NCBI RefSeq assembly: GCF_963678975.1
Contig: NC_089274.1
Span: 8,276,143 to 8,340,142, forward strand
Origin: Dysidea avara
Lineage: Eukaryota; Porifera; Demospongiae; Dictyoceratida; Dysideidae
Reading direction: 5' to 3'
Length of the DNA stretch: 64,000 nucleotides
In this document: positions 5,605 through 58,480 of the stretch, piece by piece
Numbering within the stretch: position 1 is the stretch's first letter
Layout of the letters: the number at the start of each line of letters is the position of its first letter
The notes under the pieces: model-generated
What the model was told of the DNA's origin: nothing
The model's input: only the letters and a program-made list of their open reading frames with translations
Database searches by the model: none
Program-made: the position numbers and the translations under genes

Positions 5605-8490
5605 TGGCAGCTACATCAGTAGCATTCAAACATCAGCTACATCGGTAGCACTCACATCAGCTACGTCGGTAGCACTCACATCAGCTACATCAGTAGCACT
5701 CAAACATCAGCTACGTCAGTAGCACTCACATCAGCTACGTTGGTAGCACTCAAACATCAGCTACTTCAGTAGCACTCAAACATCAGCTACGTCGGTAGCA
5801 CTCAAACATCAGCTACGTCAGTAGCACTCAAACATCAGCTACGTCGGTAGCACTTAAACACCAACTACGTCGGTGGCACTCAAACATCAGCCACATCAGT
5901 AGCACTCACATCAGCTACGTCGGTAGCACTCAAACATCAGCTACTTCAGTAGCACTCACATCAGCTACATCAGTAGCACTCAAACATCAGCTACGTTGGC
6001 AGCACTCGAACACCAGCTACGTCGGTAGCACTCAAACATCAGCTACGTCAGTAGCACTCACATCAGCTACGTTGGTAGCACTCAAACATCAGCTACATTA
6101 ATTGGTAGTAGCACTCAAACATCAGCTACGTTGGCAGCACTCACACATGAGCGACATCGGTAGGACTCACACATGAGCTATGTCAATAGTACTCGAACAT
6201 GAGCTACATCAGTAGTACTCAAACCTGAGCTACATCAGTAGCACTCAATATGTCATTAACACCTAGACTTGAGCTGTCAGTAGCATTCAATTTGTTATTA
6301 ACACCCAGACACGATCTGTCAGTAACACTCAGACTTGGTAGCGCTCAAATGAGGCAAGTTGGTACTCAAACATCAGCTACATCTCACAATGTGAGCCATG
6401 TTGGTAGCACTCACACATGAGCTACAACGGTAGCACTCAAACATGAGCTACATTGGTAGCACCATCAAACACTAGCTATGTTGCAAACATGAGCTATGTC
6501 AGTAGCAGTCAAACATGAGCTACGTCGGTAGTACCCAAACCTGAGTTACATCAGCAGCACTCAATATGTCAGTAACACCCAGACATGAACTACATCACTA
6601 GTAGCCAGACACGTATAGCACCCAGAGATGAGCTATGTTGGTAGCACTCTAATGAGGTAAGTTGGTACTGAAACATGAGCTACAGCTCACAGTATGAGCT
6701 ATGTCAGTAGCACTCAAACTGAACTACTATACATCAGTAGCACTCAGACATAAGCTACATCTCACAACATGAGCCATGTCGGTAGCACTCACACAGCATA
6801 AGCTATGCTGGTAGCACTCAAACATGAGCTACATTGGTAGCACTCACACATAAGCTATGTCAGCAGCACTGAAACATGAGTTAAGACGGTATAGCACTCA
6901 AACGAGCTATGTCAGCAGTTCTCAAACATGATCATGAGCTACATTGGTAGTACCCAAATCTGAGTTACATCGGTAGCACTCAATATGTTGGTAACACCCA
7001 AAATGAGCTGTCAGTTGCACTCAGACATGAGCTACATCACTAGTAGCCAGATATGAGCGGCTATAGCACCCAGAAATGAGCTATGTTGCTAGCACCCAAA
7101 TGAGGTAAGTGGGTACTCAAACATGAGTCTACATCTCACAATACGAGCTACGTCGGTAGCACGTAAACACGAACTACTATACGTTGGTAGCACTCAGGCA
7201 TGAGCTACATTGGTAGTGCCCAGACATGAACTACATCGGTAGCACCCATACACGAGCTACATCGGTAGCACCCATAATTAATGTGGTAAGTTAAAAGCTT
7301 TCACACATGAGCTATGTCGGTAGCACTCAAACATGAGTTACAACAGTAGAACTCCACCATAAACATATTGGTAGCACTCAAGCATGAACTACATCAGTAG
7401 CACTCAAAACATGAGCTACATTGCAAACACTCAAGAGTGAGTAGCATTCAAACATGAGCTACATCAGTAGCACTCAAAAGAGGTACGCTGGTAGCATTCA
7501 AACACGAGCTATGTCAGTAGCAAGCAAACATGAGCTACAAACATCAGTAGCACTCAGTATCAGACATGAGCTATCTCGGTAGCACATAAACATGAGCAGT
7601 CAGTAGCACTCAAACATTAGCTATATAATAGCACTCAGACAGGAGCTATGTCAGTAGCACTCAAAAGAGGTAATTATACAAGTCGGTAACATGGGCTACT
7701 ACACTCAGACATGAGCTATGTTGGTAGCACTCAAACTCAAACATGAGCTACATCAGCAGTACTCAAACATGAGGTACATCAGTAGCATGCAAACATGAGC
7801 TACGAACATCAGTAGCACTCAATTTCAGACATGAGCTATGTTTGGTAGCACTCAAACATGAGCTATATTAGTAGCACTCATACATGAGCTACTTAGTACA
7901 TAGCACTCAAAGATGTAAGCTGGTAACTTGAGCTACATCAGTAGCACTCAGACATGAGCTGTGTTGGTAGCACTCAAACATGATCTACGTCCATGTAACA
8001 TTCAAACATGGGCTATGTCAGTAACAATCAAACATGAGCTATATCATTAGCATTATGTGGACATGATCATGAGCCATGTTGGTAGTACTCAAACATGCTT
8101 ACATGAGCTACATCGCTGATGCTCAAACATAAACTACATTGGTAACACTCAGACATGAGCTATATTGATAGTACCCAGACAGGAGCTCCCAGACATGAGC
8201 TATGTAAGTCTGTAGCACTCAAATGAGGTAAGCTGCTAGCACTCAAACACGAGCTGCACCAGACATGAACTACATTAATTGCAGCCATACGTGAGCTATG
8301 TCAGTAGCACTCAGATGAGGTAAGTTGGCAGCTCTCAAACATGAGTGATGTCAGTAGCAATCACACATGAGCTACGCCAGTAACACTCAAACATGAGCTA
8401 TGTCAATGGTACTCAACCATGAGCTACATCAGTAAACGTGGGCTACATCCATAGTACTCAAACATGGGTTACATTGGTAGCTCTCAAACA
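5605..8490 (+). repeat. 24/26-bp satellite array
   Basis: Tandem copies of TCAGCTACGTCGGTAGCACT followed by CACA (24 bp) or CAAACA (26 bp). Units are nearly uniform to about 6140, then drift to ACATGAGCTACATCAGTAGC forms. In the drifted part a longer block recurs at about 6346, 6650 and 7089, with GAGGTAAGTTGGTACT plus a CTCACA(A/G) insert. Because units are 24 or 26 bp, no reading frame survives, so this is non-coding. Confidence 0.95.
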
Positions 8491-9990
8491 TGAATGATGC
8501 AACATCCATTCTAGTAAAATTAATGTGATAACTATGTTGGTATCACAGTACAATCATGCATACATCAGCTACCTGACTATCAATCACAGTGAACGTGACC
8601 TCTTGTCATCACACATTTACACGACAGCTGCATCAACTGTAGTTGCTACGTCAACAACACTGTACAGTCATTATATTGCTAGCTTCTGACTACATCAGTG
8701 GTAAAAAAAATAATAAAATGAAAAATGGGACAGCCATAGTACTGCTATACATTATTACCATGCACTGTAGCAACAGCCACACATCAGCTATATTGTTACA
8801 TAGGAACATGTCACAGCGGAGGTGGTAGAAACTTCAGCAGGGCAGCTACATATCAGCTACATCATCACCTGACTGCATCATGATCAGGACAGCTACACCA
8901 GTAGCACTGTACAGTCTATACTGTTAGCATCAGACTATATCAAATACAATGGAGGTAGCAGAAACATCACCAGCGTAGCCACACACTCTCACTACATCAA
9001 TTGCAGCTTCAGTGGACATGACGGCTACATCAGTAGCACTGTGCAGTCACATATATCAGGTATATTGTTACATCTGACTGCATCAATTGTAGCAGATGTG
9101 ACATCTGGCTTTGTCATAATCCTACATCCACACATCAGATAGATTGCTACGAATAATGTACAGCAGAAGTGTCAGGAATTTCAACTGCATACTGAAAACA
9201 CCTGACGCATTAGTTGCAGACGTAACAGCCATGCCAGGATAGATAATCCTGACCACATCACGATTGCGGCTACACATTAGTTGCATTATTTGTACCTGCA
9301 CCATTGACAGATCTTACAGATAGTAACAGCACAGGGCAGCTATGAGCTTTCTCACCTGACTGCATCACTATCACTCAGTATCAGTCACAGTGGGTGAGAC
9401 AACTATGTCAGTAATGCATTTTTCAGTGCAGTGCAGTGGCCATAGCAATCACATGAGGGCTTTGGTCTCTGCAAAATCTTACATACTTAGCATGTCCAAC
9501 CATGTGCTCTAAAGACTCCTCTTCACCCACACTGATGATAATAAAGGCCTAGTTCCTGCTTCAGCTATAACGATAGCACCTGACAGTGTCATTTGCAGTA
9601 TATTTGACAGTTATACAGTGGTATAGCACAGTTCACTACAGACATGTATCAGCTATACATGACAACATCGATGACAGTAAACAAAATGGCTACTCAGTTG
9701 CCTATACAGTAGCATATCAGTTACTGCACTTAACTGAAGGACAGGACAGCTACATTTGTAGCATGGTACAGTGACACATCAGCTGATCACTACCACTAAA
9801 TGGCAGGACTTGCAGCAGCTGTGGCCACAGTTTAAGCACGCTTCAGCTACACCGAGAGCATATGACTATACCTGCTAAGTGACCAGCACAGTGTAGTCAG
9901 TCATCAACTTGAGCGTTAGCACCAGACTATATTATTTGCTGTAGCTAGATGTGGCAGCGATGTTCAGTAGCACATGTACAGTACACACAT
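8491..9990 (+). repeat. Ancient derivative of the satellite
   Basis: Words such as CATCAGCTACATCA, CAGTAGCACTGTACAGTC and CACCTGACTGCATCA recur at loose intervals of roughly 100-130 bp. They share the TCAGCTAC...GTAGCACT core of the adjoining array. Short open frames here are chance products. Confidence 0.55.
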
Positions 9991-18870: not shown

Positions 18871-18926
18871 TAGGCCAATGAAACTTGATTAGCAGTTTCG
18901 CGTCATCGCCCGCATACTTTTGATAC
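18871..18926. mobile_element. Left part of the TTAGGCC-family MITE, split by the MULE
   Basis: TTAGGCCAATGAAACTTGAT onward matches 32143-32198 almost base for base, up to and including TTTTGATAC (18918-18926), where the large element begins. The matching right part is at 29387-29702. Confidence 0.9.
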
Positions 18927-18968
18927 GAATCTCGTTATACGCAGAAATCCTACGACCTTTGAACTTCC
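18927..18968 (+). repeat. MULE left terminal inverted repeat
   Basis: 42 bp, begins GAATCTCGTTATACGC and ends GACCTTTGAACTTCC. It matches the right repeat at 41 of 42 positions. Confidence 0.95.
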
Positions 18969-19014
18969 TGTTTCTACAAAAATCACGTGATTTCTTCCGT
19001 CATCCACTGAGTTT

Positions 19015-19411
19015 TAGTGATGGGCGATATCAGGATTTTCAGAACGATACGATATCGATACGATATTGATTAAAATTGACCGATATTGATACTTTTCGAT
19101 ACGATATTGTAACATTATTTGTTCATGTAAATTGCCAGTTTTCTTACATAATTTGATAGTAGGTAGCTATAGCTATACACAATGGAGATTCCCCGCCCAC
19201 ATACACAAGAGTAATAGTGATTTGAAAATTGCTGAAGGTAATGGAAAGCTACAATTAACAATTAAATAAGCTAAAATGCATTTTAAAATTAAATTCAGAT
19301 CACGTGATGTATCGTATCGAAATATCGGATTCTGTAAAATATATCGATACTTTTCGATATTAGCAAAAAATCAAACGATACGATATAATATCGATATATC
19401 GCCCAACACTA
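19015..19411. mobile_element. hAT MITE in the MULE 5' region
   Basis: Ends TAGTGATGGGCGATAT and ATATCGCCCAACACTA are inverted, with CTGAGTTT duplicated at 19007-19014 and 19412-19419. It is rich in ATCGATA words. Its right end lies 18 bp before the transposase start codon, so it was inserted into the promoter or 5' UTR of the gene. Confidence 0.9.
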
Positions 19412-19429
19412 CTGAGTTTTGGCGGAAAA

Positions 19430-20856
19430 ATGGCTTCCAGGGAAATCGTGTTTGACAGTGACCCTGACACGGATTGTAAAAGAAACGGTTACTCTCATGT
19501 TGATCATGAAAAGGTAAAGTAACTCACTGATTGTACTTCTAATCGAATCAGTAGCTCATTACAAAGCCAACAAATCAGTACTGAAATGACAAGTTTAATC
19601 TTATAGGTACCTAAATATTTTATAGACTAATTGTTACCCATAACATAAAGCGTTTGCTAGTTGGTATTATGATATGCACAGTTGTTTTTGTATATGGGCC
19701 ATTCCAAGAAGGCAGTATGTAATTGTGTGTGTATATAACCAGCTGCAGGTGTTCAAATGCCCTGAGAATGAGTGCTGCAAGTCCTACAACAGAAAGGACA
19801 ATTTACTTCAACACTTGAAACGAGACCACCAGATCCCAGCTACAAAAAGTGGACGGTTTAAGTGTCACATCCATGATTGCCAACAGTGTTACTTCCATCG
19901 TACTGAACTGATAAAACACTTACAAACTGAACACAGCATTCATATAGGTGAGGTACTGATGATACAACATTATATAATCAGGTGTACTCTTTAATAGCAC
20001 AAGAAACGAAAGAATTCAACAGCTGGACTGAGTTTGAATCATGGAAAGATCAAGAAGAAGAAAGCTTGCATTGCTACTTTGTACAACCTACAGGAGAGAA
20101 GCAACGTACTAATGGTAAGAGACACTGCAATAGTTTATCAGTGACCAATACACACACATCTGTTCAATTACAGAGGAAAAGCGTATAGTAGTTTATGCGT
20201 GCTGTCGGGATGGTGGGTACAGAGGCTGTACTAAGCAACGCAAGACTGATAAACAGAGGTCTTCCAAAGAATCTCGCAAACTCACGCCAGAGAAGTTTTG
20301 TTTGGCATCAATCACGGCAACTGAGAATTTGGTATCAGGGAAAGTCACTGTTTGTTACATGGCAACACACACTAATCACCAACTGAATTTGAAAGAATGT
20401 AAACATCTGCCATTGCCCAAGGCCATCATAGAAAGGGTGAAGACCATGTTAGCAAATGGCGTGGAAATGGAAACAATAATGGATGGTATGAAGTGCACAT
20501 AATTGTTTGTATTCATTTGGAATTGCAGCATGCAACAATTACACAACAATCATATACACATGCGTTGAGCTGAGCCCTGAGAAAACAGCAAAAAGAATGC
20601 GGATTATTCAACCATTATTGATGACAATACAGAGCAAAACAGATAATGTGCGATTTGACTTCCTGGAAATAGACTATGCTCTTTTATGGAAATGTACAGT
20701 GACAACTTGGTCATAAATAACATGTCAGATTTTGAATGAATAGATTATATTACAAATTGAAGAACTAGAGTAATTTTTCATCAGTATGATGTATTCAATG
20801 GCTCAGCTCAACATGTATGTATACCATACGTACTAATATGTACATACTACCTATAT

Positions 20857-20945
<89 letters not shown>

Positions 20946-23900
20946 ACACACACACTTCTGCATTATTAACACTACACTAACCACAGTTACCCTTATGTTG
21001 TATGCATTGCACTTGTTAACTATTAACATAAAAGTTCGTGACCAGACATCCACGTAAATTATATGGGCTGCATGTTTGACCACAATCAAGTTTGGTCAGA
21101 CATACATATTCTGCACTGTGTGAATGCATACAGACAAAAAAAAAGATGCAGACTAAGGGATGTAGTATATGTGGCCCTCGTTGCTAGGAGATGCTACATT
21201 CTGGAGGGTGTTTCAGGCCAATTTTGAGTGATAGTTGTTAGTCTTCATCAGCAGTGGTCAGTGAATAATCTAAATAGTTGAAATTTAATGTGTACAACTT
21301 TACCTTGTTCAAAAGAACATTAAGGCTGGTCAAACCTGCACATGGCATGGGTCTACTGTGAGATGTAATATTCGTCTCTGAATGCTATTTTACATAAGTT
21401 ATTTTCAACCACACAGACATCCGTGGTAGTGTGGGTAGTCGTGTAAAGAGACAATATTTCAGAGAAACTGCAAGCAGAAAGCACTTCGTTTCTCGCCAAG
21501 ATTGCAGAAACATACGAAGAAAACTAAATGAATTTATAAAACATCGACACACAGATGATGCCATTTCTGTAGATCGTCTTGTCAATGAACTAAATCAAGA
21601 ATCACCATCACCAATTATAGCATATAAGCAGCAAGGGATTACCAATTCCCAGTACCTACTACCTGATGATAGTTTCTTTTTGGCTATCATGACAGAATTT
21701 CAGATGAATATATTTGAAGAATTTTCAGCCAAAATTGTGTGCCTGGATTCAACGCACCGGACAAACCAGTATAAACATAAGTTAGTAACACTGGTAGTCC
21801 CAGATGAGTTTCGTAATGGTAAGACAACATTAAACTGCACTGTATTAATTATTAATCTGTTGTTATAATCATTAGACCATACCTATTTGATCTTATGTTG
21901 CACGAGCAAAATTATTTTAAATTTGGGTAGGTAGATCAGTTTGAAAATGATAGCAATTTTCATACAAAATGCAGTAGCTATATTTTACATACACAGTTAA
22001 AAATTCAGGTTTCATATTATCACACTGCCTGTTTGCCAGCTAGGTTCCCCACTTTGAGCTTTCCCATTATATCTGTACAATTTTAGACTGTTGGACAATC
22101 TTCAATGGGCCCTTTTGGCTGTAACACAATTGTATGGTCTTTTAATTGGAACATGCCATCCACACACATGATTTTCAAAATTATTTCACTTGAAGAAAAA
22201 TGCAGTTGGTCGGGCCTGCACAACATGAGATCAGATAGGTATGTATGGCCTAATGAGTATAAGACCTTGAAATGCACATCCCCATGCATATACAGAATTA
22301 AGGATACTACTTTCACATTACATTTGTTAACATTTATTTGCCCATCTTTAAAGATAACTTTTCATGTATGTAATTTCTTTCCGTCTATAACAATCAGTAA
22401 CATAGCAGTAGCAAAACATAAGGAGTTTGAAATAACCCCCCTCCCTGATTATTATGATTTCTTGGCTGTGAGTCCCATATTGTACCCTGTACTGACTACG
22501 CACTGCTATACATGCAGGTTTAATGGTTGGCATTGTATTACAAATGTATTTGGTATAAAAATTACATGTCATGCCAGGCTGCCAGTAATCACATTACAAG
22601 ATAGTGTGCACACTTGTATTTCTATGAACAGCTAATCATTTGTATAATCCAAATCACAATTCTTAATATCGTTAGAACCTGCCCTGCATACTTATGCTTA
22701 TATACACCCAGGATGTCCTGTGGCTTGGTTGATCTCTAATAGAGAAGATGAAGCTACACTAACTATGTTTTTCAAAGTAGTTCATGAACGATGTCCTAAA
22801 GCAAAGATTACTAATTTGATGACAGATGACGGTATGTATCTAGCTATTGTGTCACAATGACAAGATGTGTTATTTCATATTTTCAATGATGTTTGTAGAT
22901 TTGGCTGGAGTCAATGGATGTAGTACTGTATATCCAGGAGTGAGACATTTGCTTTGTAAATGACATATTGATAGGTACAGGTTAATGTGCTACCTCAATT
23001 TGTTTTTATCACAACATGTATTTATACAAAACATTTAGAGCATGGCAGAGAAAACTGAAAGCCCTAGTGAAGGATTCAGAACAGAAGGCAAACCTATATG
23101 CATGTTTATGGATACTAATGAACGAAGAGGACAGCGACACATTTAAAGATAAGGAGGAAACTTTCACAACTTATTGGTCTACCAGACAGCCGAAGTTTAT
23201 AGAGTATTACAACAATGAGTATAGATCCAGAGCAGGTACTGTCATGATGTAAGTGATCCACATTCCAAGTTGTCTGGCCAGGCCAACAACAGTACTTCTA
23301 ATGGTTTGGCCAGAGCATATAATGTTGTCTCAATTGGTTCCTTGTTACAAGTGATCCCCACCCACTCACACAATACTGTAGAAAGTTTGGCAACTGTGTG
23401 GTATTTCAACAAACTAAAATCTGCCAAATCATTTGTCCAATACAAATCTGTAACAATTTCACCAAAAATTTTCTCACCAGAATCCTACTGCTACAACTTT
23501 CCTCCTGCCTAACTATCTAGCTATAATATGGTAGCTAGCTAATGACTCAAACCACAATGATACGGGTGATATGATATGTTCTCAACCAGCATGATTGTGA
23601 TACTTAAAAGATTTACCATAGCTTTTACCTTTTAGAAAAGATACATGTTGAGTGAAGCAAAACTTATAATAAGGACTGGCTTCTGTTATTGGTGGTATGT
23701 ATATATGGTATAGTTACTGTACACAATCATAAGTGAAAAGTGACAAACTCTGCTGATTATACAACTCATGTTTGTTACATGGGTTATTGTTATGTTAAAT
23801 GGAAACTATCCATAGTGCTGTAAATGGTCCGTAGGGACCATTTGTGGCACTGTAAGTGGTCTACGGAACCATCAGTGGCTGATATAGGTGGTCAGGAGGA

Positions 23901-26572
23901 CCAACTTTTGGGGGACCAGTTGTAGCAATTACTTGTAATAACACTTGTGCACATATTTACTGAAAATGTTCATTTACAATTTAATAGAAAAGTGGGCCAT
24001 GTGTTACCGTCACTTTGATCACCAGAGCACAGACACTAATATGCTTGTAGAAAGGTAGGTGTATAATAGTAAGAGGTTAAGATGCAATTTACACATCATA
24101 TATACTACTGCATGTATCTGTAGTTTTCATAACAAGCTAAAGATGAATCCAAGATATCTGGCACATCAAGTTAACAAAAGAATTGATGATCTGGTTGGAA
24201 CACTCCTACAAATTGAAGATTTGTTTTTTGATCGCATGCGTAAGGAGGTCATGAGAGACAGCAGTGAGGCATCACTAAAACAAGAGGGTACTGACAGGCA
24301 CACCCGTGGGATGGAAATTCCTGATGAGTCAATACAGGTATAGATTATATACTCATACTTAGTGATAATCTGTCATTCTACAATAGATGGTCAGTGAGGA
24401 TATCTTTAAAGTTGTGTCTACAAGCGGAGAGAAGGAGTACACTATTCATGTTTATGCTGAGCAATGTGCACTAGGAAGCAAGTGTGTCCCTCACTGCATA
24501 GCCCCCGAGTGTTCCCATTTATGTCGGTGTATCATGGAGTGTTCGTGCATTGACTACAAATGTGGACACATATGCAAGCATACCCATAAGGTCATCTTTC
24601 ATACTCTGCATATGTACATGCAGTATGAGGGAAACTTTAATACTTAATATGTATGTAGGTTAGAGCATTGGTAGTGAACACACAGGTGGAAGACTTAAAA
24701 CCAATCAATCATCAGTCCATTATAGAGGATGAACCTACTGAGACAACAGAGACGTCTACTGTATACATGTGTACCCCATCACAAGACAAGCGAAAATCTT
24801 CAGGTACTTAATATAATGTGATTTACAAATTACTATAATTACTAGACATCAATGGACGCAAGGAAGCAGTTAGGAAAATGCTAGAAGCCATAAGTGAATC
24901 ATGTGACCAAACCTGTGATTCAAATGTCCTAGAACGTGTGTTGTGTTTACTGACGCAAGCATCTGCAGCTTTGAAGGCTGTTACCCAATCTTTACCAGAA
25001 AATGAATTGTGTAATTTTGAAGTTAAGGAGAAATTTGCACCGGCACAAAAGAATGAAATACAATTACGATTATGGAAAACATCAAAAGATCCTGGAAGAA
25101 AACCCTCTAACCCTCCAATGAAGTTTGTTGTGTACTGTACACATGCATGCACAGTTATAGGCAAAGCTACTGTACGTACATAGTATAATTACCATCTTCT
25201 CTCTTCTAGGAAGCCTAGTAACGATGACAAGTTGAAGATAATGTCAGTGATATCTGGATCTCAGCAGACAGCATCAAACAGGTAGCTAAATAAAGCATAT
25301 GTACATAAAAGGTGATAAACACAACGTACATGTATTTATAGCAATCAGCTTTACGTTGACAGAGAAACAAACATTTGTATAGTCAAAGACCAACAGCCAC
25401 AAGTTATTGGTAAACAGTATATTTTACAATTACACGTCTGCATTGTTTCCATACAAATAGGAAAAAAGCGAAAGAGATGTGGCACTTGCAAAGGCTGTAC
25501 TAGAGTAAATTGTGAGAAGTGCGTCAACTGTCAAGACATGCCAAAATATGGAGGACCAGGAAAGAAGAAGAGGCCATGCAGTGAACGGAAATGTGAAAGG
25601 TCGATACAAATTTATGTTAATGATATGGAGATATTACGTTTTTCACACACAGATTAACACAGGAAACTGATACACTGAACACTGCTAGAAAGGTTTGATA
25701 ATGATTGAACTACTGTAATATTAACACATACCAATGCACCACAATGTGTTTAGGAAAATATTCAGCCTGTTGACGACACAATTTCGAGGAAATTAACTGA
25801 CAATTTTATATCAGGTATATGAACAAACAAATCGAAACAATATACAAACATACTTAACATATGCAGGTAGTAACAATGGAAAAAACAAACAGCCTAAGAC
25901 ACAACATGGTGTAAGTCACATTTACAACAAATTTTATTATAATCTATTGCTAAAGTAATATTTAAAATTGTATTTGATATACTGCCTGAATGTTTATTTT
26001 AGGTAGCCGAGGAGTTGATGTTATCATGTGATGCATATTTAACCAGACAAAGTCGTAAAGTAATAAAGATTAAACGGGACGGAAACTGTTTCTATGCATC
26101 ACTTTCCTTTCAACTATTCGGTACACAAGATGAAGACTTTGAAGTTCGACACGTGGTAACCAGTATGGTTAAAAAAAACCAAAGTATTTTCAGACCTTAT
26201 TTTATTCCAAGGAAAGATGTGGATACGATTGAAAAACATTGTGAGCAAAACTGGCCGTCAGGTGCATGGGCCACTCAGGTAGAAGTAGTAGCTGCAGCAA
26301 CAGTTTTTGCAGTACCGATATTTTTCATAGAGCAGTCAGGAAATGAGCACAAGTGGAATACTACTATATACCCACTGCACAACCCCACACTCAAGTATCC
26401 TCACATTCCTGAGATGGAAGAATGTGCTTTGTTGAGGCCAACACATTTTGAGTTGTTATACTACACAAATTCTCATTATGATGCAATAGTATCTGTGGAT
26501 ACAGGAAGGGTGTGCATTTACCAGCCTTTATTATCAGGAGAATCTAGTGAACTGATCGAGATATCTGACTAG
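19430..26572 (+). CDS. Multidomain MULE transposase: C2H2 x2, FAR1/FLYWCH-like, MULE, SWIM, CXXC, OTU
   Basis: My exon model: 19430-19513, 19749-19947, 19998-20114, 20174-20485, 21417-21818, 22712-22831, 22899-22974, 23039-23235, 23988-24054, 24124-24337, 24387-24590, 24659-24803, 24846-25122, 25210-25281, 25342-25409, 25461-25599, 25653-25692, 25754-25814, 25867-25910, 26003-26572. All junctions are GT-AG and in phase; the total is 3408 nt, 1136 codons. Start: AAAAATGG at 19430. Domains: C2H2 fingers C32-H55 and C67-H90; FAR1/FLYWCH-like region 134-238 (VVYACCRDGG, THTNHQLNL); MULE core with VCLDSTHRTNQY (D348), GCPVAWLISNRED and LMTDD (about 411); SWIM CxC-CxH at C648, C650, C659, H661; CXXC finger 852-898 (KRCGTCKGC, CQDMPKYGGPGKK); OTU protease 947-1135 with DGNCF (C975) and SHYDAIV (H1104). 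Codon 433 is TGA where the MULE motif LCxWHxxRAW expects tryptophan. DNA cutting and joining is established for MULEs; the roles of CXXC and OTU here are inference. Confidence 0.88.
20859..20955 (+). repeat. (CA)n microsatellite
   Basis: About 97 bp of CA with one TA interruption, inside intron 4 of the transposase gene. Open frames across it are artefacts. Confidence 0.98.
23825..23903 (+). repeat. Three hairpins at exact 32-bp spacing
   Basis: TGGTCCGTAGGGACCA (23825), TGGTCTACGGAACCA (23857) and TGGTCAGGAGGACCA (23889) each fold on themselves, with starts exactly 32 bp apart. They lie in intron 8 of the transposase gene, the intron between the RAW and AEKWA segments. Confidence 0.85.
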
Positions 26573-28099
26573 TCTCTTATTATTATTATGACAACCACTA
26601 GGAATATTGATTATATTGCATGCAGTTTAAATATCTTTGTTATACCTATGTCATTGTGAATCTTTTCTTTAAAAAAATCCTTGCTTGAATCCGGCGCCAG
26701 TTTTCAAGCGAGAATGGTTAAACAGCTGGCAGTGTATTCATTTTACTTGACACACTAATGGTGTTTGAGGGTAAGCTTATGGTAGTTTGAGAGTTGACCT
26801 GGCTTTGCTGGGACAAGCCACTCTCCAGCCCTCTCGTAAACTTACCTTCATACAGACAGTGGAAAGTCATAACAAGCAAACCTCAGGATAGCATTAAGGT
26901 AAAAGTTTTAATAATTTCCTCTGCCAGCCAAGACCATGAATTTGTACTAAACATACCTGACGACAACATACGTGGCTGAAAAACATTACCATTTGCATTA
27001 CATTACTCGAGGCTTTCAACTTTTTACAAAACCACATCCAAGATTGCACATCTCAGATGGTCTATTATAGCAAATTCATAAACACGTCACACTTACTGTA
27101 CACCAAATCTCAAACTGGTGGATTCTGTGTCATCTTGCTATAATACTCAGCAAAATAGTTTTACAACACAATAAGCAGGATATGAAAAATAATTAAAGCA
27201 TTAGCTAGGTAAGTAATTGCATCGTTCCAGCTCTGTGATGTCGGCCAGTTCCTCTGTTGTTGCAATTTCTGAAACACATGCAGCCTACCAGCATGGCTGT
27301 AGATCTGTTTCTGCTGTAGAACTCAATGTGGATCACATGGCTGCTGGAGCATTTATTCTTCATTGATATGTACATAAGTAGCTGTTACGGTAACAACATT
27401 TTGTGTAAGCGTACAAGTGGAAAGGACTTATATAGGCTGTGCCTTCTTTCTTGTAATTTTATCAATTCCAAATGTGGTCAATAAAATTCAGTATAATAAT
27501 GTAGCAGAATTTTAACCTTAAAATTGCAATTTTGGACTAACCGTATATAAATTTCATGGTAAAGTACATTATGTGGCAGTGTGAATTGTAATTATTTTTG
27601 GCTTTGTTATCTATTAATAAGCTTTATAGCGCAACAAACATTATGCCAGTTGCATGTGTGGGAACAGGGGAATTGCACTCTAAGCACTCTGTGCAAGCAA
27701 CTTCTAGATCTACAAGCACCCATCAACTGAACTGATGAACACACAATACAAAACAAAAATCACATTACAAATACACACACACACACAAGTTTACAACAGC
27801 TACAATACTAAAAGAAGTCTTCACTCTTCACATACAAGCTGTGGACAGAGAGGCAAACTCTGTCCTATCCTGTGATGACTGAACTGATTATTGGCATGAT
27901 GTGCAGATTATCTTGTCAGCTATAATAGAATGCATAACTATTTTGTGATTAACTGATAGCACTGAACACCTTATGATTTACTCACTTTTAGTCCAGAGAA
28001 AGAACCATCATTAGTAATATGATGATACATACAATACATTATTAGTCCTCGGTCTTGTGCGACCACAGTCAGATCAAGCAAAATGAGATCTTGTGGGCA
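26573..28099. other. MULE interior, no further gene seen
   Basis: AT-rich sequence after the OTU stop codon, with no AATAAA immediately downstream. A possible distant polyadenylation signal (GTCAATAAAATTC) is near 27480, and a short (CA)n lies at about 27774-27787. No second MULE gene is recognisable. Confidence 0.45.
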
Positions 28100-29030
28100 C
28101 GGCAAGTTGTGTACATGTAAAAAGAAAACAAACAAACAAAAAAAAAGACTAACAACAACAGCAACAACAATAATTACAAGACAAAAATTAAGTTAAGTGC
28201 TCGGTTGACCAATCACTACAAAAAAATCTTTTGCGAACATGTCATACATTGACGAGCAGCATTGTCGAGGATCTTTTGGATGGAAGATTTGGTGGTTACA
28301 CAAAGTTGTACAAAGTCAATAAAGTTCTTGATGTTCTGAATGGAAGAAGGTAGGTAGTGACCTAGCACACTAATTTCAATAGTTTCATAATAGTTTGGGA
28401 TTTTTAAGTGATCAAATTCTGCAAGCAGTCGATGATATTCAATCTTATTTTGTTTTCTAGACCTAGCAGATTGAATGTTGTGTTCTGAGTCTAGAGGGCA
28501 GGTTAGTTCAAGTAAAGCAACAGAGGGTTTGCCTGAGTTATATACAACAATATCTGGCCTGTAAGGTGTGATTAGTAAGGTAGATAGAATAGTGGCTTGA
28601 GGTGCTTCACTAGCTCGTAAACCCTGAAGGTCAGCAAAAACATGGATAGATGGATTGTCACTAAATATTTCTTTTGAGTTTAGAGGCCAGAAGGTGAAGA
28701 ACTTGATCATGACGGTATGTATATCTCTGTTGCGGTAAGGCAACAGGACAGCCTCCTTGGATGTGAGCTGTGGTAGGATGAGTCGAGTCACACAATGTAC
28801 ACTTAACATCAGATTGAACACACCAATGCCTAAAGTTAACTGCAGTTGGTAAGGTATCTGAAGCAGCCCACAAAAGAAATGACAACTGCCCAGGATGAAA
28901 ACCAGACATCAGCCGGACATGTTCTGTCCAACCACTTCTTCAGATAACGAGTGGCAGTTGATTCCATCTGTGAAATTGTCCTATTTGACACTGCATCAAC
29001 ACATAGGTGAAAATGTAACAATGATATGAT
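28100..29030 (-). pseudogene. LINE 3' fragment with CCHC knuckle and PD-(D/E)xK-type nuclease domain
   Basis: Minus strand, three frames in sequence. About 29000-28950 has a polymerase-thumb phrase (QMESTATRYLKKWLDR). From 28909 there is DTLPTAVNFRHW and a knuckle starting at about 28801, CTLCDSTHPTTAHIQGGC, followed by RYTYRHDQVL. From 28821 to 28216 is a domain with RPDIVVY, VALLELTCPLD and SRKQNKIEYHRLL, then IEISVLGHYLP. The order thumb, CCHC, PD-ExK resembles the C-terminus of LINEs with a restriction-like endonuclease (R2/NeSL type). Two frameshifts break it. A simple-repeat AAC/A-rich tail lies at 28120-28190. It was inserted within the MULE. Confidence 0.7.
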
Positions 29031-29344
29031 GTAGTTTCTATATATCCAAACCTTGTACTCTCCACGAATACAGAGAGAATCAGTTGCATTCAGTAGGTAG
29101 TCAGTCTAGCAATCATTTGTTTACCTGCAGCTCTTTTAGTAGCACTCAAAGATCCACAATCAGTCGATGCAAAACTGAACTAAAAGCATTTTATGGTTTA
29201 CCGTAGAAGCCGCGTAGCATCAGTTCGAAGTAACCACTTGAGGTGAGAATAACAGATAAAACACCAAAGCACCAAAGAAGAAGAATCTCACTTTTAGGTA
29301 ATCGTGTGCGAATGACCGAAATGTGATCACGTGATTTCGGTACC

Positions 29345-29386
29345 GGAAGTTCAAAGGTCGTAGGATTTCTGCGTATAACAAGATTC
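29345..29386 (-). repeat. MULE right terminal inverted repeat
   Basis: 42 bp ending GCGTATAACAAGATTC, the inverse of the left repeat with one mismatch. Confidence 0.95.
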
Positions 29387-29702
29387 TTTTGATACACCCG
29401 CATAGGATTTCATTATTGGAATTTCAGATTGAAATACTCTAATAGAGCAGTCACTTTTACTCTAATGAAGCAATCAGCTATACTCTAATGGGAAAATCAT
29501 TTGTTATATGGATTAGTAATGTACTTTAGCTATTTAATGCAAGAGTAATCAATGTAGATCTCACTTTTTTGGCAGAAATCTTCATGTTTGGGATGTGTGT
29601 TGTGCTTTTGGAAAATAATGAATAATGAACAATAACCGCCCGCCCTCATCAAATTTTCAAAAATCTGAGCGAGAAACTGGTAATCAAGTTTCATTGGCCT
29701 AA
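29387..29702. mobile_element. Right part of the TTAGGCC-family MITE
   Basis: From TTTTGATACACCCGC to TTCATTGGCCTAA, nearly identical to 32190-32506 (one base longer T run in the latter). It contains the CTCTAATAGAG motif at about 29433-29490. Confidence 0.9.
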
Positions 29703-30900: not shown

Positions 30901-31798
30901 TCACATAATACTACAGAGCTTTTTATGGCCTTTGCGATGCATTTTGGTCAAATGTTCCGCCAATTGCTGATTGTTCTGCTGCGCTTCTCTGAGTTCACGT
31001 GTTAGGGAAGACAAAGTGTCTTGAAATATTGCTTGTTGTTTTTCTTGTTCTGATTTCATACTAGCCATAGCTGCTGCCATATCTGCACTCATCTTCATCA
31101 CATTTTCTTGAGCTTTCCGAAGTTGCTCTTCTTTATTTTGTTCTCTCCTCTTAGCTTCTTGGTACAGCTCATTTGCTTTTTTGAAATAATAGTTGGTGTA
31201 AAGCCTTCTGTTGGCAGAATAAATATTATCTACCATTGTGAAGAATTCGGTAACCTTTGATCTTCGATAGTCAGTGCTGTTGTCAGTGCTCTCAAGCATC
31301 ATAAACCATCTGTTAACCCTTTCCATCAACATTTTAAGATGTTCTGGACACTTTGGGTCATCAAGCGCACTGATAACTAAATCTCGTTGCTCCTGCTCAT
31401 TTGTACCATAACATTTTGTTGCAGTGAAAATGATGAACATGAAAGGCCACAATTCTCCTAGCAACTCAAGCTCTTCAAGAGCTGTAGCTTCTGCAGAAGT
31501 GAACCTGTGGCTTGCATTGATAACTAAAGCTATCGCATGTACACCTTCCTTAGCTAAAAGAATAGCTTTGCCTAATTCATTGACTTTCTCTTCTTCTTTT
31601 CAAAGTCATCGCAAAACCCTGGCGTGTCTATTAATCGAACCTTCCTGCCACGAATCTCAGTCTTGTGAGCACCACTTTTTGATGTTACAGAGATCAACCC
31701 TCCACCAACTTTAAATACCTCATTTCCAAATAAATAATTGCAAGCAGTACTCTTCCCTGCTCCAGTGACTCCTGTCAACATAACAGATACTCCACCAC
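30901..31798 (-). pseudogene. AIG1/GIMAP-type GTPase exon, frameshifted, C-terminal CaaX box
   Basis: Minus strand. After an acceptor (TTATACAG) at 31799, the exon encodes the P-loop GVTGAGKSTACN, the G3 motif LIDTPGF, the family segment HAIALVINASHRFTSAE, a helical region and a long coiled coil (EKQQAIFQDTLSSLTREL). It ends KGHKKLCSIM, a basic stretch plus a CaaX-type tetrapeptide. Two extra bases in a GA-rich run at about 31590 shift the frame just after DTPGF...DDFEK; the paralog at 42564 lacks them. This is either a pseudogene or an assembly error. The upstream exon and start codon are not visible. AIG1/GIMAP proteins are membrane-associated GTPases linked to immunity and cell survival; prenylation is inferred from the motif. 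Confidence 0.8.
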
Positions 31799-31957
31799 CT
31801 GTATAATAGAGAGATATATTAAATGATCTATATCTATATGCTTTTATTCAATCTTTCATATTTAGTACATAACTACATCATGTTGCAGTGCCCACACCAA
31901 AGATCTGATTGTGCATGGTTGTACAAGGCCGTATCTTTGCATGACCATACAAGAACC

Positions 31958-32814
31958 TAGTCTGGCGGCGCCCGCCCCTTCGCATAGAGTAAGGGTCTGG
32001 TATGCTTAGTATAGTGGAGTTGTACCGGATTACCAAAAACTGGTGCAACCAATCAGAACGCTCCACGTTAATCAGCGCATTTTTGTTTATGTTACGTCAA
32101 AAGAATGAATCAAATGCCCTAACAGTACTGAAAGAGTTAGCTAAGGCCAATGAAACTTGATTAGCAGTTTCGCGTCATCGTCCGCATACTTTTGATACAC
32201 CCGCATAGGATTTCATTATTGGAATTTCAGATTGAAATACTCTAATAGAGCAGTCACTTTTACTCTAATGAAGCAATCAGCTATACTCTAATGGGAAAAT
32301 CATTTGTTATATGGATTAGTAATGTACTTTAGCTATTTAATGCAAGAGTAATCAATGTAGATCTCACTTTTTTTGGCAGAAATCTTCATGTTTGGGATGT
32401 GTGTTGTGCTTTTGGAAAATAATGAATAATGAACAATAACCGCCCGCCCTCATCAAATTTTCAAAAATCTGAGCGAGAAACTGGTAATCAAGTTTCATTG
32501 GCCTAATAAAGAACAAAGAGAAGTGTTATTTCGGGAAGGATTTTCGCCTTGTTTGATATGCGAAAAACCCGGGTTACGCTCTGATTTCCTAGGTAGGGAG
32601 ACATGTCTATTCTATAAAAGTAGACCAATCCACTTTCGCCTGTGTAAAGGCGAAGGAAGTTCAATATCACTGCCACAATTTTGAGTGAGGCACTTCCGTT
32701 AAGACCATTTTCGTTACGTCATTACATTCAAATTAAATTCCTCCAGAACAACTCGGTGATACTAAGCAAACCAGACTCTTACTCCATGCGAAGGGGTGGG
32801 CGCCGCCAGACTAG
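31958..32814. mobile_element. hAT-type non-autonomous element with nested MITE
   Basis: Inverted ends TAGTCTGGCGGCGCCC and GGGCGCCGCCAGACTAG extend to about 60 bp with few mismatches. CAAGAACC is duplicated at 31950-31957 and 32815-32822. The TTAGGCC MITE (32143-32506) is nested inside. Open frames over the two ends give the same peptide, YSMRRGGRRQT, an artefact of the inverted repeats. Confidence 0.85.
32143..32506. mobile_element. TTAGGCC-family MITE, intact empty site of the MULE
   Basis: Inverted ends: AGGCCAATGAAACTTGATTA on the left, TAATCAAGTTTCATTGGCCT on the right. TTTTGATAC occurs once at 32190-32198, the point where the MULE interrupts the other copy. It carries the CTCTAATAGAG motif at about 32237-32290. 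Non-coding. Confidence 0.9.
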
Positions 32815-42560: not shown

Positions 42561-42563
42561 TAG

Positions 42564-42890
42564 GTAATGAAATAATTGTTATGTTGACAGGAGTCACTGG
42601 AGTAGGGAAGAGCACTGCTTGCAATTTTTTGCTTGGAAATGAGGTATTTCGAGTTGGTGGAGGATTGATCTCTGCAACATCAAAAAGTGGTGCTCACGAG
42701 ACTGAGATCTGTGGCAGGAAGGTCCAACTAATCGACACTCCAGGATTTAGTGATGACTTTGAAAAAGAAGAGAAAGTCAATGAATCAGGTAAAGCTATTG
42801 TTTTAGCTAAGAAAGGTGTACATGCGATAGCTTTAGTTATCAATGCAAGCCACAGGTTTACTTCTGCAGAAGTTACAGCTCTTCTTTTGT
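42564..42890 (+). pseudogene. AIG1/GIMAP-type GTPase exon, truncated by a LINE
   Basis: After the acceptor at 42563 the exon reads GNEIIVMLTGVTGVGKSTAC (P-loop), then LIDTPGFSDDFEKEEKVNES and HAIALVINASHRFTSAEVTA. It is highly similar to the exon at 30901-31798, without that copy's frameshift. Similarity stops at about 42888, where the 3' end of a minus-strand LINE begins. The coiled coil and CaaX end are absent, so the gene copy is broken. Confidence 0.8.
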
Positions 42891-43926: not shown

Positions 43927-44126
43927 NNNNNNNNNNNNNNNNNNNNNNNNNNNNNNNNNNNNNNNNNNNNNNNNNNNNNNNNNNNNNNNNNNNNNNNNNN
44001 NNNNNNNNNNNNNNNNNNNNNNNNNNNNNNNNNNNNNNNNNNNNNNNNNNNNNNNNNNNNNNNNNNNNNNNNNNNNNNNNNNNNNNNNNNNNNNNNNNNN
44101 NNNNNNNNNNNNNNNNNNNNNNNNNN
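43927..44126. other. Assembly gap
   Basis: 200 N; a round number typical of scaffolding, so the true size is unknown. Confidence 0.99.
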
Positions 44127-55039: not shown

Positions 55040-57200
55040 CAAGTTATTCTGTAGGGAGAAAGTTTAGCTGCAAACAAATTACCCTGTAGAGAGTTCAGCT
55101 ACAAACAAATCAACCTGTAGAGAGATCAGCTCGAGGAAGTCTCCTTGTAGAGAGATCAGCTAGAAACAAATCACCTTGTAGAGAGTTCAGTGACAAAGAA
55201 ACCATCCTGTAGAGAGATCAGCTAGAAACAAATCACCCTGTAGAGAGTTCAGCTAGAAACAAATCACCCTGTAGATAGATGAGCTAAAAACTAGACACAA
55301 TATAGGGAATTCAGTTACAAGCAAATCACCCTGTAGAGAGCTCGGCTACAAACCCTGTAGAGAAATCAGCTACAAACAAATCACCTTGCAAAGAGTTCGC
55401 TTACAAACAAATCTACCTGTGGAGATATCAGTTACAAACAAATCACCCACTGTAGGGAGATCAGATTACCCTGTAGGGACTTCAGCTACAAACAAATCAC
55501 CCTGTGGAAAGTTCAGGTATAAAAAATTCACCCTGTAGATAGTTTTGATACAAACAAATCACCCTGTAGAGAGTTCAGCAAGATAAAAGTCACCCTGCAG
55601 AGAGATCAGGTCACCCTATAGAGAGGTCAGCTAGAAGAAGTCACCTTGTAGAGAGATCAGCTAGAAGCAAGTTACCTTGTAGAGGGTTCAGTGACAAAGA
55701 AACCACCCTGTAGAGAGATCAGCTACAAACAAATCACCCTGAAGAGAGATCAGCTACAACCAAATCACCCTGTAGAGAGATCAGCTAAAAACACATCACC
55801 CTGTACAGAGTTCAGCTACAAATAAATCACTTTGTAGAGAGTTAAGCTATACAAACAAATTACCCTGTAGAGAAATCAGCTACAAACAAATCACCTTGCA
55901 AAGAGTTCACTTACAAACAAATCTACCTGTAGAGATATCAGTTACAAACAAATCACCCACTGTAGGGAGATCAGATTACCCTGTAGAGACTTCAGCTACA
56001 AACAAATCACTCTGTGGAAAGTTCGGGTATAAAAAATTCACCCTGTAGATAGTTTTGATACAAACAAATCACCCTGTAGAGAGTTCAGCAAGATAAAAGT
56101 CACCCTGCAGAGAGATCAGGTCACCCTATAGAGAGGTCAGCTAGAAGAAGTCACCTTGTAGAGAGTTCAGCTACAAAGAACAGAGAGTTCAGCTAGAAAC
56201 AAGTGACCCTATAGACAGATCAGCTAGAAACAAGTCATCCTGTAGAGAATTCAGCTACAAACAAATCACCCTGTAGAGATTTCAGCTACAAACAGATCAT
56301 CCTGTAGATAGTTCAGCTATAGATACAAGTCACCCTGTATAGTAGTAGCAGAAGTCACCTTGTAGAGACCAGCTACAAAGAAACCATCCTGTAGAGAGTT
56401 CAGCTACAAACAAATCACCCTGTAGAGAGTTCAGCTACAAACAAATCACCCTGTAGAGAGTTCATCTATGAACAGATCACCTGTAGATAGTTCAGCTATA
56501 CAAGTCACCCTGTAGAGAGATCAGCTAGAAGAAGTCACCGTCTAGAGAGATCAGCTAGAAGCAAGTCACCTTGTAGAGAGTTCAGCTACAAAGAAACCAT
56601 CCTGTAGAGAGTTCAGCTACAAACAAATCACCCTATAGAGTGTTCAGCTAGATAAAAGTCACTGTACAGAGAGATCAGGTCACCCTATAGAGAGATCAGC
56701 TAGAAGAAGTCACCTTGTAGAGAGTTTGGCTACAAAGAACACACTCTGTAGAGAGTTCAGCTACAAACATGTTACTCTATAGGGAGATCAGCTAGAAACA
56801 AGTCACCTTGTAGAGATTTCAGTTACAAACAGATCATCCTGTAGATAGTTCAGCTAGATACAAGTCACATTGTAGAGAGATCAGCTAGAGGAAGTCATCT
56901 TGTAGAGAGATAAGCTAAAACAAGTCACTTTGTAGAGAGTTCAGCTCCAAAGAACCCACTCTGTAGAAAGTTCAGCTACAAACAAGTTACCCTATATAGA
57001 GATTAGCTAGAAAGAAGCCTGTAGAAAGCTCAGCTACAATCAAATTACCTTGCAGAGAGTTCAGCTACAAACAAACCACTTTATAGAGAGATGAACTAGA
57101 AACAAGTCACCTTGTAGAGAGGTCAGCTACAAAGAAACCATCCTGTAGTTCAGCTACATTTCGAGTCACCCAGTAGAGAGATCAGGTACAAAGAAATTAT
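55040..57200 (+). repeat. 31-bp satellite array with a higher-order repeat
   Basis: Tandem units of CTGTAGAGAGTTCAGCTACA followed by AACAAATCACC. A block of about 295 bp at 55361-55655 recurs at 55871-56165, 510 bp downstream, with the same variants (CACCCACTGTAGGGAGATCAG, GGTATAAAAAATTCACC). Variants with GATCAGCTAGAAGAAGTCACC are interspersed. There are 31 bases per unit and stops in every frame, so it is non-coding. Confidence 0.95.
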
Positions 57201-57407
57201 CCTGTGGGGAATAATTGGTATTTAATAAATATATGTATATAATTTGTATAATTACTATATAATAGAATCAAAAATAGTTGAAGTATTAAAAATCATCTTT
57301 AAGTTCTTTTCTTTTTCCTGTGGTAAATAAAAAAAAACAGATGGGTTAAAAAAGCCCCAAAGCCAGCCACAGGCCGGCTTTGCAATATACAAATACAAAA
57401 AGAAGTG

Positions 57408-57745
57408 ATATCTAATCAAAAACAGCCAAGCTGTAAAAAAAGGTGCGGCCTCCAAAAAGGCCATGGTGAAAAAAGATGTGAAATCCAAGGTGGTGGCCAA
57501 GAAATGGCTGTGATGGTAGGTTAATGGCAAAAATTTTAATTACGACAATTCAGGTGAATTTGCGTTGCCTCCTCCATTAGGATTCGGCACCAAATTCACC
57601 TGAATTGTCGTAATTAAAATTTTTACCATTAACCTACCATCACAGCCATTTCTTGGCCGCCACCTTGGATTTCACATCTTTTTTCACCATGGCCTTTTTG
57701 GGGGCCGCACCTTTTTTTACAGCTTGGCTGTTTTTGATTAGATAT
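57408..57745. repeat. Large palindrome, 155-bp arms
   Basis: Arms 57408-57562 and 57591-57745 are inverse copies with a handful of mismatches and a 28-base loop. Each arm contains a short Lys/Ala-rich frame (KKGAA(S/P)KKAMVKKDVKSKV) ending AKKWL-stop, like a histone H1 tail, without a start of its own. A smaller hairpin (AAAGCCAGCC ACA GGCCGGCTTT) lies just to the left. Confidence 0.93.
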
Positions 57746-57829
57746 ATCTACCAAGTACCAACAGCTACTTGGAGTTTGATACAGTAAAAGCTACATATAG
57801 CAACATGCATATTGCATGATTCAGTCTTG

Positions 57830-58480
57830 CAGGTTTTCGTTCACAGGCTTCAAAAGTATTTACCAGAATTTTTTAAACTCTATGCTGACCTTCCAGGTTA
57901 TCTTGCCAGTGTCAGCCCTCCTAGCACTATCCCCACTGAACTTTCTACCTCCCTTAGCAGACCTGACTTGGTCTTGCATGGTTTCTAAGGATTCCATCTA
58001 CCTGTTTGAACTCACCGTTCCCACTAATACCCAGCAACACTTATTGGCTGCAAGAGCTCGGAAGGAAGATAGATATGGCTCTTTACTGTATGATCTTCAA
58101 CGCACTGGATTAGTTGTTGATCTCATTTCTATCGAGATAGGATGTCTGGGTCACTTTATGCCAGAAACACTTGCTCAAGTGAATACTGCTTGTTGTGTGT
58201 CGAAGAAAACTGTCCGGTCACTGTTTGAGCAGGCTGCTCGTATTGCCATCTCCTGCTCTTACAGAAGTTTCAATTCTAGAGCCTCTCCAGAGTGGGATCT
58301 ATTGGACCTCTTGACCTGAACTTTGTTACTGTGTAGTTATAATTTTGTACTGTATATAAGTTAAGTAATGTAAGTCTTACCAGGGTTCCTGCACTGATCA
58401 CTCTGGCTATCAGTGTACAGTAACCCTGAGTCTAGGCCCCTGTTTGTATACTATATATTGTCTTAATAATCAATAAGACG
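57830..58480 (+). pseudogene. LINE fragment with PD-(D/E)xK-type nuclease domain
   Basis: Starts within YLPEFFKLYADLPGYLASVS, reaches SRPDLVLHGF, then shifts frame at about 57985 into DSIYLFELTVPTNTQQHLLA, ARKEDRYGSLL and IEIGCLGHFMPETL, with a stop at 58319. It is homologous to the fragment at 28216 (RPDIVVY, LLELTCP, IEISVLGHYLP). The 3' UTR continues to about 58480 with an inverted AGGGTT/AACCCT pair. Only the C-terminal domain is present. Confidence 0.7.

Follow-up and report, generated by a model that had tools for sequence, protein, structure and literature searches.

A Mutator-like transposon of the sponge Dysidea avara with a predicted transposase that carries CXXC and OTU domains, and the CpG-rich insertion sites of its family

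The genome of the sponge Dysidea avara harbors, in the 64,000-nucleotide stretch analysed here (contig NC_089274.1, positions 8,276,143 to 8,340,142 of the forward strand; hereafter the window, numbered from its first letter), a complete Mutator-type transposable element at 18927-29386. Its predicted transposase reads, from N- to C-terminus, C2H2 zinc finger, catalytic core of Mutator-like elements (MULEs), SWIM-type zinc finger, CXXC zinc finger and ovarian tumor (OTU) cysteine protease. The CXXC finger is the domain by which animals read unmethylated CpG, and the insertion sites of this CXXC-MULE family are CpG-rich. From the sequences, we regard as evenly balanced the joint reading that the element is a recently active full-length MULE whose CXXC finger would dock the transpososome on unmethylated CpG clusters, and whose OTU domain would remove ubiquitin. 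The wider proposal, namely that an animal MULE lineage fused CXXC to its transposase and may thereby aim its insertions at methylation-free CpG islands, sensing host methylation, remains tentative, and we place it just short of an even call. The evidence for this lineage comes from many families within a single sponge and from a single protein of a metagenome.

The mechanism that we propose would unfold as follows. The C2H2, FAR1-like and SWIM regions would recognize the element ends, and the DDE core would cut with a 9-bp stagger, thereby generating 9-bp duplications. The CXXC finger, a putative CpG binder, would tether the complex to unmethylated CpG clusters, which in a CpG-depleted and presumably heavily methylated genome would mark open or promoter DNA; new copies would therefore land beside CpG clusters. 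Finally, the OTU domain would probably strip ubiquitin from the transposase itself, from chromatin proteins at the site or from repair proteins there.

A transposase with CXXC and OTU domains

The gene and its domains, all on the + strand, are as follows.

19430..26572: transposase gene, 20 exons, ATG to stop, 1135 codons (gene model)
19749..19947: exon 2, C2H2 zinc finger region (PF00096, E=8.3e-5, 23.3 bits, below the cut-off of 25.2)
20174..20485: exon 4, weak FAR1/WRKY-GCM1-like DNA-binding region (PF03101, E=0.026, below cut-off; sequence context)
21417..24054: exons 5-9, MULE catalytic core (PF10551 and PF21056 in copy c5; D in CLDST, D in MTDD and E in VES by eye)
24387..24590: exon 11, SWIM-type zinc finger CRCIMECSCIDYKCGHICKH (motif by eye; no Pfam match)
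25461..25599: exon 16, CXXC zinc finger with eight cysteines and KYGG (PF02008, E=7.5e-13, 48.7 bits against a cut-off of 26.5)
26003..26572: exon 20, OTU cysteine protease domain (DGNC ... SHYD) and stop codon (PF02338, E=2.1e-12, 48.1 bits against a cut-off of 23.3)

In the spliced protein of c5, one of six complete copies (c1, the window copy, to c6), Pfam recognized the MULE domain PF10551 (E=1.9e-14, 54.3 bits against a cut-off of 27.6), the ZSWIM RNaseH-like domain PF21056 (E=2.5e-11), CXXC (E=2.3e-11) and OTU (E=2.1e-10), the last three likewise above cut-off; a NCBIfam scan of five proteins returned no match. Compared with proteins of known structure in PDB, the CXXC exon matched KMT2B (E=5.5e-11) and the CXXC domain of DNMT1 (E=3.4e-9), and the OTU exon matched OTUD1 (E=5.6e-4), its DGNC and SHYD motifs being read by eye. 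Four NCBI proteins, P0003, P0004, P0005 and P0007, bear the name Dysidea avara; P0005 (629 amino acids) is letter-identical to codons 507-1135 of our gene model. The original prediction, made from the letters alone, rightly placed a MULE core in the gene; CXXC, OTU and a premature stop codon at 22961-22963 had gone unnoticed.

This stop, an in-frame TGA at codon 433, is that of the window copy. Elsewhere the frame is interrupted at codon 710 in c3 and c4 and at codon 709 in c6, and c2 is broken by insertions and deletions, whereas the 20-exon frame of c5 is open from ATG to stop. According to the gene model, the window copy makes no full protein and would need another copy to move. Every intron retains GT..AG in five of the six complete copies. 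An apparent frameshift after exon 2 was rejected: it is an intron of 46-50 nt bounded by GT..AG, also seen in P0003.

Pairwise ratios of nonsynonymous to synonymous differences (pN/pS) were 0.21 for c5-c6, 0.24 for c1-c6, 0.27 for c1-c5, 0.29 for c3-c6 and 0.33 for c3-c5, 0.44-0.49 for pairs with c2, and 0.72 for the closest pair, c1-c3. For most pairs, and with small counts, this suggests selection on the protein during the spread of the family. Among substitutions private to one copy (c1, c3, c5 or c6), 29 of 152 fell at CpG sites; c5, with 131 CpGs in 9956 bp, has about 2.6% of its bases at such sites. A share of 29 in 152 is consistent with germline methylation of the element itself.

CXXC as a recurrent module of MULE transposases

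The association of CXXC with a MULE core extends beyond the window family. P0001, a JGI metagenome protein 54% identical to the window gene, also combines MULE and CXXC, the latter above the Pfam cut-off. The 60 proteins listed for P0001, a list that contains P0001 as well, include two with an annotated CXXC (P0001 and P0005) and three with an annotated OTU (P0005, P0009 and P0021). A sister family in the sponge, with ends GAATCTCGTTACGCGCAGAGATTC, displays the same order, MULE core then CXXC. Two further multi-copy CXXC groups were sampled; they share no nucleotide similarity with each other and both are of MULE type as judged from motifs read by eye, one with SWIM and CXXC, the other with the MULE E-motif, SWIM, CXXC and OTU.

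Across the whole genome, PF02008 gave at least 150 CXXC matches (the best 150 of 193 candidates). Typical animals have a dozen or so CXXC domains, and this sponge genome holds far more. At least 58 of the 150 listed matches lie within 13 kb downstream of a MULE match on the same strand, 38 of them beside a PF10551 place (taken from the best 150 of 410 candidates) and 20 beside one of 43 P0001-related places. CXXC matches near a MULE match in the wrong arrangement numbered five; random shifts gave a mean of 0.4 and a maximum of 4 in 200. On these sequence grounds, CXXC is a recurrent module of predicted transposases in the D. avara genome.

MULEs are known to capture fragments of host genes, as PMC6446971 describes, and CXXC and OTU could in principle be passively captured fragments in the manner of Pack-MULEs, rather than working parts of the transposase. 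We judge this very improbable. Both domains continue the reading frame of the transposase, and the intervening introns keep their GT..AG boundaries in five of six copies; CXXC follows the MULE core also in P0001, in the sister family and in unrelated MULE-type groups; and the NCBI model P0005 likewise joins CXXC and OTU to the C-terminal part of a MULE. Passive capture is thus already disfavored relative to a working CXXC-bearing transposase.

Two side observations concern the CXXC matches as such. Many of the at least 150 matches fall in groups of equal score, suggesting multi-copy elements. In CXXC group g47 (L067), a long coding minisatellite lies in the transposase frame between SWIM and CXXC.

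The element, its ends and its family

The boundaries of the window copy and of the miniature inverted-repeat transposable element (MITE) that hosts it are the following; the terminal inverted repeats (TIRs) and target site duplications (TSDs) are given with their exact positions.

18927..18968, + strand: left TIR, 42 bp; all six complete copies have C at base 7 of this end
29345..29386, - strand: right TIR, 42 bp; all six complete copies have T at base 7 of this end, counted inwards
18918..18926, no strand: TSD, left copy, TTTTGATAC, 9 bp
29387..29395, no strand: TSD, right copy, TTTTGATAC, 9 bp
18871..18926, + strand: left part of the interrupted host MITE (alignment to the uninterrupted MITE)
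29387..29702, + strand: right part of the interrupted host MITE (alignment to the uninterrupted MITE)
32143..32506, + strand: uninterrupted paralogous MITE, a paralogous empty site (alignment to the MITE halves)
19006..19410, no strand: nested insertion, about 405 bp long, private to this copy and lying in its 5' region (alignment; missing in all five other complete copies)

The inverted match of the two ends, predicted as 42 bp with a single mismatch, was computed and its coordinates are right. A fresh CpG deamination in the window copy was considered as the source of this mismatch and rejected: the difference, C on the left and T on the right, is fixed in the family. The predicted 9-bp duplication is present on both sides. 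Alignment also bore out the fit of the MITE halves to the uninterrupted MITE, with 98.2% identity over 55 bp on the left and 99.7% over 317 bp on the right. This unfilled MITE, which carries TTTTGATAC once, had been presented as an empty site in the window; it is a paralogue 2.4 kb away, not an empty allele. An assembly artefact at the 18926/18927 join is unlikely, because the same ends recur elsewhere in the genome and P0005 equals amino acids 507-1135 letter for letter.

An exact search with the 16-bp end found six places in the 551-Mb assembly. With the 31-bp end and up to three mismatches, 16 places were found against none for the reversed pattern, so the matches are not due to chance. Twelve of them form six complete inverted pairs with a spacing of 9.5-10.6 kb; the other four are single ends of the right type. 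The recurrence of the ends as inverted pairs is established, and clean or nearly clean TSDs accompany three of the six. The complete copies are as follows.

c1: window 18927-29386
c2: C3:14554446
c3: C9:1929050-1939020
c4: C9:2013114-2023683
c5: C12:16227184-16237139
c6: C12:25792346-25802347

Three of these six copies measure 9.96-10.0 kb, and c4 carries a private 590-bp insertion in the copy alignment. Identity among c1 and c3-c6 is 98.6-99.9%, and c2 is 94.9-95.2% identical to the rest. Among the single ends, c8 is a partial copy and c7 matches the element across its last 253 bp; c9 and c10 have only the last 46-66 bp in common with it and may, from their sequence, belong to related families. 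TSDs read by eye agree at 9 of 9 positions in c1 and at 8 of 9 in both c4 and c5. For c6, the insertion shows a 9-bp overlap in MITE coordinates, the duplicated 9-mers being only 5/9 identical even though the copy is young, and no duplication was seen by eye in the flanks of c2 and c3. The left flanks of c3 and c4 (C9:1.93 Mb and C9:2.02 Mb) are 99.4% identical over 3 kb and the right flanks differ; one of the two copies therefore arose by duplication or recombination, and the flank alignments indicate either a segmental duplication or a recombination event, its breakpoint lying within the transposon or next to it.

Altogether, PF10551, the D/D/E residues, the SWIM-type finger, the TIRs, the 9-bp TSD and five further complete copies uphold the original assignment: judged by its sequence, the window element is a Mutator-superfamily DNA transposon. 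It is full-length and probably recently active.

CpG content of the insertion sites

The D. avara genome is CpG-depleted, with an observed/expected ratio (o/e) of 0.35 in 20 random 1.2-kb stretches. The sites in which the family resides depart from this background. For c1 to c10, the right flanks contain 1, 2, 5, 7, 9, 7, 7, 4, 2 and 8 CpGs per 100 bp, a mean of 5.2 against 1.27 in random windows (p=6e-6), and the CpG o/e of the flanks is raised as strongly as the CpG count (p=6e-6). Usable left flanks, those of c1, c2, c4, c5 and c6, contain 4, 2, 4, 5 and 1 per 100 bp; that of c3, a duplicate of the c4 flank, was left out of the count. Pooled over the flanks, CpG density is 6.1 per 100 bp in the 50 bp next to the ends (15 flanks) and drops to 1.6 at 1-1.5 kb (11 flanks).

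Two comparison sets were used, random windows and 20 randomly drawn outer flanks of the MITE found in the window. Twelve sites, the ten above and two of the sister family, average 4.67 CpGs per 100 bp, against 1.27 in 240 random windows (p=1.8e-7) and 2.0 in the MITE flanks (p=4.8e-4). Restricting the set to six right flanks, after removal of c1 and c6 (both hosted by MITEs), c9, c10 and the sister-family sites, gave a mean of 5.67 (p=0.0019 against MITE flanks). All 16 sites, with four later ends added, average 4.19 per 100 bp (p=1.4e-3 against MITE flanks). The six ends of related families fetched after the idea had arisen, taken alone, differ from random windows at 100 bp (p=0.0033) and at 200 bp (8.3 per 200 bp, p=3.2e-4), and from MITE flanks at 200 bp (p=0.0056). 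Neighboring random windows count as independent in these tests; when each random stretch contributed a single window (n=20), the 16 sites still gave p=1.6e-5.

Of 12 upstream stretches, L065, L066 and L097-L106, an end was accepted in L066, L097, L103 and L104, and the other eight were left out of the count. L103 and L104 carry seven mismatches to the end pattern and were accepted on the ground that they share the same end sequence with different flanks; a single seven-mismatch match in L102, with 0 CpG per 100 bp, was not. An apparent right end of group g47 was rejected as merely the truncation point of one copy, and its two flanks (8 and 0 CpG per 100 bp) were dropped from the count together with four more stretches of this group. 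In group g53 no ends were found, the homology running through the fetched stretches.

The host MITE offers a second line of evidence. Its end occurs at 1090 places with up to two mismatches, corresponding to about 545 copies and at least 0.036% of the genome. Both c1 (at MITE positions 48-56) and c6 (at about 67-75) sit in this MITE family, oriented oppositely and about 19 bp apart, and a cluster of CpGs at MITE positions 29, 31, 37, 41 and 60 adjoins both insertion points. The chance that two of five independent insertions fall in this MITE comes to about 1e-6, rising to 1e-4 should the MITE be ten times as common; this hotspot comparison was chosen after seeing the data.

Several points weigh against a CpG-directed insertion by the CXXC finger. 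The CpG hypothesis arose from the same first ten ends. Some flanks are CpG-poor (per 100 bp, 1 on the right of c1, 1 on the left of c6, 2 on either side of c2 and 2 on the right of c9), and flank G+C is somewhat above random (p=0.014 at 100 bp). The four later ends alone average 2.75, statistically indistinguishable from MITE flanks at 100 bp (p=0.25), and the six later ends reach only p=0.063 at that distance. A clean TSD is missing in three of the six complete copies. Concerning the protein, the CXXC loop of the window family, KKRPC, has R where KMT2B (KKQCC), DNMT1 (SKQAC) and P0001 (KKQAC) have Q; the K-Q of this loop takes part in binding unmethylated CpG. The loop reads KKQ or LKQ in P0001 and in the two other sampled groups. 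Moreover, among the matches listed, no CXXC follows within 13 kb downstream at 112 of 150 PF10551 places and at 23 of 43 P0001-related places, and many MULEs of this genome may have no CXXC. One MULE group with long frames, represented for instance at C6:2475641, C7:28859958 and C8:3934974, has no CXXC match listed in its vicinity. Plant Mu is not known to carry a CXXC, and its preference for open chromatin is part of the main rival explanation, to which we now turn.

According to this rival, a general preference of MULEs for open chromatin accounts for the sites: the element would be an ordinary MULE inserting in open, gene-near chromatin, CpG richness would be a by-product, and CXXC would do another job such as binding the element's own ends, shielding it from silencing or anchoring it in the nucleus. 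We grant it a real but minority chance. Maize Mu insertions concentrate in open chromatin, as reported in PMC2774946, which illustrates such a preference in plants; the left TIR itself contains three CpGs; and MITE flanks are themselves mildly CpG-rich compared with random windows (2.0 against 1.27 per 100 bp, p=0.0097). The excess of CXXC-MULE sites over those same MITE flanks at 100 bp, with 12 as well as with 16 sites, speaks against this rival, and so do the two insertions about 19 bp apart beside one CpG cluster.

Unbiased insertion followed by loss offers another route to the same pattern, selection or ectopic recombination removing copies outside CpG-rich regions. Only surviving copies can be observed, and some flanks, such as the left flank common to c3 and c4, suggest recombination or duplication. 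Nevertheless, we find this improbable: all complete copies except c2 are young, CpG density pooled over the flanks is highest in the 50 bp next to the ends, and two insertions lie about 19 bp apart in one MITE. Inserts in CpG-rich, gene-like DNA would also be expected to be harmful more often, not less.

Relation to known systems and significance

MULE target duplications measure 8-11 bp, usually 9 bp. MULEs as described in passages of PMC6446971 have TIRs of 14-500 bp, 9-bp target duplications and C2H2 or SWIM fingers. The sponge element resembles them in its MULE DDE core, its SWIM and C2H2 fingers, its TIRs within this size range and its 9-bp TSD, and differs by its C-terminal CXXC and OTU domains; the passages of that paper, which were not queried for CXXC, contain none. 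OTU on a MULE is already known: the same passages list the MULE group of MuDR-6_HM from Hydra with an OTU gene. No CXXC is listed there for MuDR-6_HM.

P0021 from the oyster Crassostrea virginica and the ENA protein P0009 unite OTU, a finger region and a MULE core in one protein. The window gene is 35% identical to P0021 over 539 residues and 31% identical to P0009 over 827 aligned residues. In both, OTU is N-terminal, whereas it is C-terminal in the sponge, and neither has a precomputed Pfam CXXC match. From this difference in position, the protease was therefore probably gained or moved more than once among MULEs.

A C-terminal OTU or Ulp1 protease on a DNA transposase is also found in Ginger1 (passages of PMC2836005), whose transposase is of the Gypsy-integrase type, not MULE, and for which these passages mention no CXXC. 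Stripping of ubiquitin during transposition was suggested there for Ginger1 and other protease-bearing elements. With the host proteins KMT2B, DNMT1, CFP1 and KDM2, the sponge finger shares the eight cysteines and the KFGG/KYGG motif of CXXC; it differs in being carried by a transposase and, in the window family, by the loop change from Q to R. Among the best-ranked open-licence literature no paper on a CXXC-bearing MULE was found, which does not establish its absence from print.

The proposal bears on the question of how cut-and-paste elements keep away from silenced DNA: a transposase equipped with the host's own reader of unmethylated CpG would, if the proposal is true, provide a direct mechanism. 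It would also help explain the abundance of CXXC domains in the sponge genome, which number at least 150 and in at least 58 cases lie next to a MULE core, and such elements would offer host chromatin proteins new combinations of CXXC and OTU.

Other features of the element and the window

A second feature of the element lies on its opposite strand.

28216..29105, - strand: decayed, 5'-truncated tail of what we take to be a non-LTR (non-long terminal repeat) retrotransposon, with a reverse transcriptase (RT) thumb, a zinc knuckle and a PD-(D/E)XK-like endonuclease (frames, copy alignment)

This tail is present in c1 and c3-c6, split into several frames, and the aligned region is missing in c2; 28219-28908 gave no Pfam match. 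The minus-strand open reading frame (ORF) 28216-28908 was considered as a second gene of the element and rejected, being part of this tail and broken into several frames in c1 and c3-c6. A similar fragment occurs at 57801-58319 (+); the two resemble C-terminal ends of non-LTR retrotransposons, presumably with a restriction-like endonuclease.

Further along the window, a 200-base assembly gap lies outside the element at 43927-44126, and long degenerate minisatellites occupy 5608-8492 and 55057-57205, with units of 26 bp and 31 bp, respectively. Two related ORFs at 31477-31800 and 42562-42883, presumably GTPase-like, form an inverted duplication on opposite strands with arms 87-94% complementary. 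Finally, a near-perfect palindrome at 57408-57745 has 155-nt arms, 98% complementary and 28 nt apart.

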